From an uncultured Caryophanales bacterium (GTDB lineage: Bacteria; Bacillota_I; Bacilli_A; RF39; UBA660), in contig CAMVMQ010000004.1 of the NCBI GenBank assembly GCA_947168625.1, forward strand, positions 1 to 37,978: a stretch of DNA of 37,978 bases. Reading direction: 5' to 3'. The notes beneath the pieces were generated by a model, which saw only the letters and a list, made by a program, of their open reading frames with translations, was not told the DNA's origin and did no database searches. Shown piece after piece: positions 6,231 to 20,972 of this stretch; within the stretch, counting starts at the first letter, position 1; each line of letters starts with the position of its first letter. Made by a program: the position numbers and the translations under genes.

Positions 6231-6620
6231 TTACCATACATAAGCAATTACTTCTCCACCTAAAGAATTAGCTCTAGCTTCTTTATCAGTCATAATTCCT
6301 TTAGATGTAGAGATAATAGCAATTCCTAACCCATTTAATACTGTAGGTATTTCTTCTTTACTAGAATATACTCTAAGCCCAGGTTTAGAAATTCTCTTAA
6401 GTCCTGTAATTACTCTTTCTTTATTTTTATATTTTAGTGTTAATGTTATCATTTTTTGAACGCTTTTAGATGATACTTTATAATCTTCAATAAATCCTTC
6501 TTCTTTTAATATTCTAGCAATCTCTTCTTTAGTTTTAGATGCTGGAACATCAACAGATTGAGCTCTATTTTGATTAGCATTACGTATTCTTGTAAGCATA
6601 TCTGCGATTGGATCTGTCAT
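6231..6620 (-). CDS. rpsH: 30S ribosomal protein S8
   Basis: [17 protein letters not shown]...[31 protein letters not shown]. Confidence 0.97.
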
Positions 6621-6648: not shown

Positions 6649-7299
6649 TTACGATTCTTTCTCTTTTTCTTTAATCTTTTGTTTTGGTTTATCTTTTTCT
6701 AATTCTAAGAAATCATTTAATGCATTTTGCATTTTTTCATAAGTTAATTGTCTTCCATCATTCTGAACTTGTAAATCAAATAAATATTCTATAAATTCAT
6801 TTACATATTCATAATTTTTAAAGTCAGTATGACATAAAATAGTAGAATCCAAAGCATAATCATCAAACAAATCATATTTGTCTAATAATTTATCAAATGT
6901 TATATAATATAATTTTTCTAAATTAGGACCACATTTACACATAGCATTATAATAAATATCAATATAATTTTCTGAAGTATCAACTGATTTTAGATATTTT
7001 GCATATTTTCTTTCAGCCTTTTTATCAGCAAAATCTTTTGATATTGAAATAGCAACTTTTCTAAAGCCATTAAACTCTACTCCTTTATTATAAATTATTG
7101 GCCCAAACGAATTGTTTTCTTTAATTGTAAGTAAATCTGCAATTATCTGTATTATATCAAAAGTTCTAAAAGTCAAACTTGATTTTAATAATCTTTTTAA
7201 TTCAGCATTCTTTATTTTTTCTTTTCTAATTAATTCTAACAACTTATCATATTCATCTTTAGCTATATCTAACTTATATAATAATTCTTCTGAATTCAT
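6649..7299 (-). CDS. Uncharacterised ~217-aa protein inserted between rpsH and rpsN
   Basis: Long ORF (222 aa in track); best ribosome-binding site (GGGAG, 7 nt spacer) points to MNSEELLYKLDIAKDEY at 7299. No family recognised; Lys-rich C-terminus KPKQKIKEKEKES. Confidence 0.8.
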   Translation of the reverse strand: MNSEELLYKLDIAKDEYDKLLELIRKEKIKNAELKRLLKSSLTFRTFDIIQIIADLLTIKENNSFGPIIYNKGVEFNGFRKVAISISKDFADKKAERKYAKYLKSVDTSENYIDIYYNAMCKCGPNLEKLYYITFDKLLDKYDLFDDYALDSTILCHTDFKNYEYVNEFIEYLFDLQVQNDGRQLTYEKMQNALNDFLELEKDKPKQKIKEKEKES

Positions 7300-7326
7300 A
7301 ACCATACTCCCATACAAAAGATTAAA

Positions 7327-7512
7327 TTACCAACTTGATTTTTTTACACCAGGTATTTGACCTTTATATGCAAGTTCTCTAAAGCAAATACGGCAAATTC
7401 CATATTTTTTAAGAACTGCATGAGGTCTTCCGCAAATACTGCATCTAGTGTATTTTCTAACCTTAAATTTAGGTTCTCTTTCTGATTTAACTATCATTGA
7501 TTTTCTTGCCAT
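7327..7512 (-). CDS. rpsN: 30S ribosomal protein S14, zinc-binding type
   Basis: [61 protein letters not shown]; start trimmed from the ORF-track Met at 7548. Confidence 0.96.
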
Positions 7513-20446: not shown

Positions 20447-20728
20447 TTATAGTCTATCATATTGAGTCCACATTCTAATTATATGAATTTCTTTTTTTTG
20501 CTCATCAACTTCATATACAATTCTATGTTGCCTGTTAATTCGTCTAGAATATAATCCTGTTAAATCACCGCTTAATTTTTCATAAGATGGTGGATAGCCA
20601 AAAGGGTCTTCCATCATTAATACTAAAATATTTATAGCATTTTTATCTAATCCAGAACTTTTGAGTTTAATTTTATCTTTTCCAGCTTGCTTTGAAAATA
20701 ATATTTTGTATTTATTGCCACTCTTCAT
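20447..20728 (-). CDS. yoeB: Txe/YoeB-family toxin
   Basis: MKSGNKYKILFSKQAGKDKIKL...YEKLSGDLTGLYSRRINRQHRIVYEVDEQKKEIHIIRMWTQYDRL; start trimmed to 20728, overlapping the antitoxin by 17 nt. Confidence 0.9.
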   Translation of the reverse strand: MKSGNKYKILFSKQAGKDKIKLKSSGLDKNAINILVLMMEDPFGYPPSYEKLSGDLTGLYSRRINRQHRIVYEVDEQKKEIHIIRMWTQYDRL

Positions 20729-20972
20729 TTGGATCAAACTCCTTAGCACTACTCCAATCCTCTTTTTTTCTTATTTCATTAATTCTTTCTACATATCCAG
20801 GAATACTTGATAAATATAATGTTTCTTCAATATTTTTCCACTCATCCTCAGATATCAAAACAGCATTTTTACCTTTATTATTAACAATTGTAATAGGATT
20901 AAAGCCAACATTTACATCAGATACTAATTGAAATAAATTAGCTCTTGCATTAGTAATATTTATTGTGCTCAT
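20712..20972 (-). CDS. yefM: Phd/YefM-family antitoxin
   Basis: MSTINITNARANLFQLVSDVNVGFNPITIVNNKGKNAVLISEDEWKNIEETLYLSSIPG; GAGGTG ribosome-binding site 7 nt upstream of 20972. Confidence 0.92.
   Translation of the reverse strand: MSTINITNARANLFQLVSDVNVGFNPITIVNNKGKNAVLISEDEWKNIEETLYLSSIPGYVERINEIRKKEDWSSAKEFDPNEEWQ

Follow-up and report, generated by a model that had tools for sequence, protein, structure and literature searches.

The window, by which we mean the whole 37,978-nucleotide stretch of DNA analyzed here, carries the S10/spc/alpha ribosomal operons on its minus strand. Few gene orders in bacteria are as stable as that inside the spc operon. Between rpsN and rpsH of the window operon lies an additional, co-directional ORF for a protein of 216 amino acids, separated by spacers of 27 bp from rpsN and 28 bp from rpsH.

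An additional ORF within the spc operon

The features of this region are as follows.

7327–7512 (stop codon 7327–7329), minus strand: rpsN (S14), the upstream flank of the inserted ORF
7307–7311, minus strand: GGGAG ribosome-binding site of the inserted ORF, 7 nt before its ATG, seen directly in the sequence
6652–7299 (stop codon 6649–6651), minus strand: inserted ORF of 216 amino acids, ATG at 7299, assigned to an unnamed accessory superfamily
6231–6620, minus strand: rpsH (S8), the downstream flank, ATG at 6620; its own AAGGAGGG site lies at the 3' edge of the inserted segment

An earlier note on this DNA had described a co-directional ORF of about 217 amino acids in the S14–S8 junction, with its own GGGAG site, short spacers on both sides and a basic tail. 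All of these features were found: the site runs from 7311 to 7307, the gaps are those given above and the COOH-terminus of the product is basic; the span of 6649–7326 assigned earlier had taken in the upstream spacer.

A scan of the window region found no terminator-like site between rpsN and rpsH, and promoter-like sites near the inserted ORF numbered 6, compared with 7.6 expected from shuffled sequences, so that a promoter of its own was not supported. Given the lack of a terminator-like site and the chance level of promoter-like matches, the ORF is most likely transcribed as part of the spc operon, and the expression with the ribosomal operon proposed in the earlier note is thus probable. 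The codon adaptation index (CAI) of the ORF, 0.736, fell between the extremes of the ribosomal protein genes (0.64 and 0.82), and its G+C content of 0.218 was lower than the comparison values of 0.29 to 0.36. The ORF is coding rather than a chance reading frame, given that intact homologues are found at this position in two further members of the genus and that a profile built without this genus recovers its product. Elsewhere in the window, a 100-amino acid ORF (20447–20749, minus strand) encodes what we take to be a YoeB/RelE-type toxin of a toxin-antitoxin pair.

The rpsN–rpsH junction and the divergence of the ORF among relatives

We measured the gap between rpsN and rpsH by tblastn in 98 genomes, 10 of the window genus and 88 of other genera in the same family; all compared sequences are from draft genomes, at least some of which are metagenome bins. 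Of the 88 genomes from other genera, 87 had a gap of 12 to 52 bp and one a gap of 106 bp, confirming that the junction normally lacks a cargo gene, as the earlier note had assumed. With only short gaps in the other genera, the insertion is specific to the window genus, where it is decaying. Intact ORFs were present in three genomes of the genus, with gaps of 706 bp in the window genome (G000), 780 bp in G002 and 629 bp in G007. In G008 (665 bp) the ORF is frameshifted into two pieces, G004 (307 bp) has an internally deleted copy, G003 (89 bp) has a scar, and the slots of G001, G005, G006 and G009 are empty (29 to 31 bp). Of the 10 members with a readable junction, 7 therefore lack an intact ORF, through absence, a frameshift, a deletion or reduction to a scar; an eleventh genome of the genus, G010, was left out of this count, as its contig ends inside rpsH and L5 was not found.

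The occupied junctions of G000, G002, G007, G008 and G004 have in common the 5' sequence TTTAAT.TTTTGT after the rpsN stop codon (with one base more or less in some), and the G003 scar and the G004 remnant end alike. In a tree of the five flanking ribosomal genes, the intact copies fall in a group of G000, G007 and G002 and the broken copies in a group of G008, G004 and G003. Deeper branches of this tree have weak support (42 to 73%), so that the number of losses is not fixed. Given that the 5' junction and remnants of the 3' tail are shared, the simplest history has the ORF inserted once, at the root of the sampled genus or close to it, and then lost repeatedly. The insertion itself is thus older than the recent event suggested in the earlier note; it is the replacement of the ORF body, described below, that is recent.

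Comparison of the three intact alleles divides the ORF into two parts.

6784–7299, minus strand: hypervariable body, residues 1–172, with 22 to 35% amino acid identity among the G000, G002 and G007 alleles
6652–6747, minus strand: constant tail, residues 185–216 (LTYEKMQNALNDFLELEKDKPKQKIKEKEKES), with 87 to 93% nucleotide identity between alleles and a basic COOH-terminus

The body of the window protein consists of a long NH2-terminal helix, a core motif, DIIQIIADLLTIKEN, that contains a near-invariant Glu (E61), and a beta region. Between the close relatives G002 and G007, the flanking genes for L5, S14, S8, L6 and L18 specify the same residue in 648 of 662 codons (98%), with a synonymous fraction, the share of same-residue codons that differ, of 0.077, whereas the ORF body shows 28% amino acid identity over 131 aligned codons, with a synonymous fraction of 0.324. 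Synonymous divergence is thus fourfold higher in the body than in the flanks (Fisher p = 3.3e-5). The last 31 codons are 92.5% identical at the DNA level in the same pair, and the sequence through the stop codon into rpsH is nearly unchanged. For G000 and G002, amino acid identity of the body is 35% and the synonymous fraction is 0.389, compared with 0.182 in the flanks (p = 0.001); for G000 and G007, the contrast was in the same direction (p = 0.058). A higher rate of amino acid change does not by itself explain a fourfold rise in synonymous divergence, so that the bodies appear to be older than their flanks and to have been brought in by replacement. We therefore infer that the body was replaced by recombination rather than evolved in place, a conclusion that draws on this contrast in divergence and not on a discordant tree: topology tests on body and tail could not discriminate between trees with exchange and the species tree.

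No donor allele came to light: even the nearest paralogue (on contig 14 of G007) is no more than 56.8% identical at the DNA level to the G002 body. The rpsN gene of G002 is 97.8% identical in nucleotide sequence to that of the window genome, compared with 91.1% for L5 and 88.1% for S8, and is slightly less similar to that of G007 than are L5 or S8. These values are only suggestive for so short a gene, but the exchange tract may have reached into rpsN of G002.

An unnamed protein superfamily and its genomic settings

The earlier note had stated that the protein matches no recognized family, and our searches agree: those of Pfam, NCBIfam and PHROG yielded no significant match to the protein, those of the PDB no informative one, and no Pfam, NCBIfam, PADLOC or PHROG model was common to its relatives. 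Profile hits to influenza haemagglutinin HA2 in the PDB (E ≥ 0.027) were dismissed as heptad-repeat similarity. PADLOC gave weak matches to single members of the superfamily only, and thus no shared anti-phage defense model, and tblastn with two queries found no match in 50,697 phage records. No link of the superfamily to phage, defense or toxins was therefore apparent from PADLOC, PHROG or the phage records. AlphaFold2 models obtained from a four-sequence alignment were poor (pLDDT of 61.5 and 52.9), and their Foldseek matches were dismissed as meaningless.

Relatives were recovered by widening profile searches stepwise from the genus (A1) to the family (A2, A3). Members show an NH2-terminal coiled-coil-like helix of variable length, the motif ystFd..ig.iia.L.s..Egk.Y.y, a beta-rich middle and the end f.Yi.dFId.li.YR.en.l..is.eel..ll..Fi. 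Most conserved positions are occupied by hydrophobic or aromatic residues (F, Y, L), along with one near-invariant Glu; Glu, Tyr and Phe at profile positions 68, 166 and 198 (E61, Y165 and F197 in the window protein) are near-invariant across about 40 members. To guard against circularity, we made a profile with seeds from other genera alone, although these members had first been reached via the window protein; it recovered that protein with E values of 9.2e-7 (7 seeds) and, after iteration, 2.4e-12 and 1.3e-12 (Z = 500,000). Of 147 sampled genomes in the family, 25 had a match to the superfamily profile at E ≤ 0.001, although the weakest few of these may be helix noise. UvrC-like, MreC-like and other coiled-coil matches in the genomes (L005, L031, L034; E of 1e-4 to 1e-3) were dismissed as such noise. 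Across the phylum, 3 of 396 genomes had matches, all in the same taxonomic family, and none was found in the approximately 376 sampled genomes that, judging from the listing order, lie outside it. On the basis of these profiles, the protein is a divergent member of a previously unnamed, fast-changing superfamily that, in the genomes sampled, is confined to a single taxonomic family.

Neighbors of the superfamily members were recognized by eye from flanking ORF sequences, without a database test. One member adjoins what we take to be tuf (G148), another (L065, 1429–2061) has a dnaA-like gene on one side and an rnpA-like gene on the other, presumably at the replication origin of G211, and a third (L088) lies between apparent mutS-like and cvpA-like genes; others presumably adjoin prfB, metG, rpe, purB, ttcA or a sirtuin-like gene. 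Further members are situated among genes without recognized function. Members occur singly or in tandem. Two members stand in direct tandem after another unrecognized ORF in L041 (1234–2897), and the long forms L047, L048 and L061 apparently contain the domain twice. Split copies and fragments are frequent (L007, L050, L096, G008). A full-length paralogue of the window ORF in the same genus (L008, contig 14 of G007, 1057–1770) is flanked by genes that we take to encode a polysaccharide deacetylase-like protein and a DacA-like D-Ala-D-Ala carboxypeptidase. On contig 13 of the same genome (L007, 1489–1677), a stand-alone 62-amino acid copy of the constant COOH-terminal tail region adjoins unrecognized genes; it shares 67% identity with the window protein and is either a remnant or a mobile tail module. 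To judge from these settings, the superfamily has the pattern of a patchy, gained-and-lost accessory gene and not that of a ribosome component.

Interpretation of the inserted ORF

One reading given in the earlier note is a lineage-specific ribosome or stress factor, and a ribosome-associated or translation factor of this kind might be placed in the operon for co-expression. Its position in the spc operon, the basic tail, a codon usage (CAI of 0.736) inside the range of the ribosomal protein genes and the translation genes beside some relatives (tuf in G148; prfB and metG) are consistent with such a role, but the ORF is broken or missing in 7 of 10 readable genus members, its body is 28% identical where the ribosomal proteins are 98% identical, and most relatives lie beside unrelated genes (mutS/cvpA, purB, ttcA, the sirtuin-like gene). 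Wholesale exchange of the body between close relatives is also hard to reconcile with a conserved ribosome contact. Ribosomal protein and translation factor models of Pfam and NCBIfam included none that matched the protein significantly and none common to its relatives. The reading was thus not sustained, and a dedicated ribosomal or stress factor is unlikely. The abundance of superfamily pseudogenes and fragments (G008, L007, L050, L096) and the low G+C content (0.218 against 0.29 to 0.36) would also fit an ordinary accessory ORFan without strong selection, which was inserted once, drifted and decayed, and whose divergent versions are separate imports. We regard this as a real possibility, although not the probable one: full-length ORFs remain intact in three genomes despite deep divergence, the shared 5' junction and constant tail argue against independent imports of the whole gene, and the near-invariant E, Y and F across about 40 members indicate that selection acts on the fold.

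Empty sites, patchy presence and nearness to highly conserved genes, as well as the possible converted tract in rpsN of G002, are features that might be expected of a free-standing endonuclease of the homing type, able to invade conserved genes with co-conversion of the flanking DNA, and LAGLIDADG nucleases were the top PDB fold matches of one AlphaFold2 model. These fold matches were noise, however (E ≥ 1.2, probability ≤ 0.07, TM of about 0.2), and were absent with the second model; no Pfam nuclease match was common to the 21 scanned members, and just one acidic residue is near-invariant, rendering a homing nuclease very improbable. An assembly or binning artefact might be suspected given that all the genomes are drafts and that the G010 contig ends inside rpsH, but each of the three intact copies comes from a different assembly and lies on a contig that extends through the operon in both directions, the junctions match, and this explanation is largely refuted and scarcely credible.

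We somewhat favor the interpretation that the ORF is a dispensable accessory gene of the superfamily, an old insertion that has been repeatedly lost and whose divergent bodies have been swapped by recombination, with a recognition-type role for its product. The shared 5' junction and 3' remnants show that the gene entered the rpsN–rpsH junction early, at the root of the sampled genus or close to it, and it has since been lost or broken repeatedly. Homology arms would be provided by the conserved rpsN gene at one end and by the constant tail together with rpsH at the other, and homologous recombination through these arms would be the most economical mechanism for the exchange of old, divergent alleles. 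The operon promoter and the ORF's own ribosome-binding site would then express whichever allele is present. The predominance of aromatic and hydrophobic residues among the conserved positions, with just one near-invariant Glu, suggests a role in binding or recognition and not in catalysis, and the maintenance of divergent alleles, which usually means diversifying selection, points in the same direction; our best guess from the sequence is thus a variable recognition or accessory protein. Diversifying selection on a recognized target, be it a phage component, a competitor's molecule or a self molecule, might keep divergent alleles circulating, although the data showed no sign of such selection on a ligand. 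More speculatively, and rather improbably, the rpsN–rpsH junction might be a swap slot driven by recombination through these homology arms, for phage-facing or self/non-self recognition alleles expressed at the level of ribosomal proteins, with other members placed likewise beside other core genes.

A dispensable gene whose body has apparently been replaced beside nearly identical ribosomal neighbors would constitute a clear-cut example of allele swapping at a site where it was not expected, and the searches define a protein superfamily, previously unnamed, in uncultured bacteria about which little is known (Firmicutes, Bacilli-type). If diversifying selection does maintain the alleles, the slot would offer a direct handle on what bacteria with small genomes must recognize or evade.

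Type I restriction specificity genes and capsule loci are polymorphic loci at which alleles are swapped between conserved flanks. The inserted ORF resembles them in that divergent central segments appear to have recombined via conserved flanks, but it is a single gene in a ribosomal operon, with no restriction, capsule or other known function detectable. Core operon clusters of Bacilli carry inserted genes, such as nrdHEF or ilv-leu (PMC8046335), and these are likewise extra genes among conserved ribosomal and transcription operons; they are, however, known metabolic gene sets located between operons or in the rpoBC operon, whereas the present insertion is a single gene of an unnamed family inside spc. 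In streptococci, rpsN has been exchanged for a different isoform by recombination at rplE-rpsN-rpsH (Genome Biol Evol 2021, PMC8046335), so that the recombination mechanism has a precedent at this very place. In both instances one coding sequence is swapped inside the spc operon with its neighbors untouched, but the streptococcal exchange replaces an essential ribosomal gene with its paralogue, whereas in the window genus the gene exchanged is accessory and not ribosomal, its replacements are divergent alleles, and the constant tail is kept.
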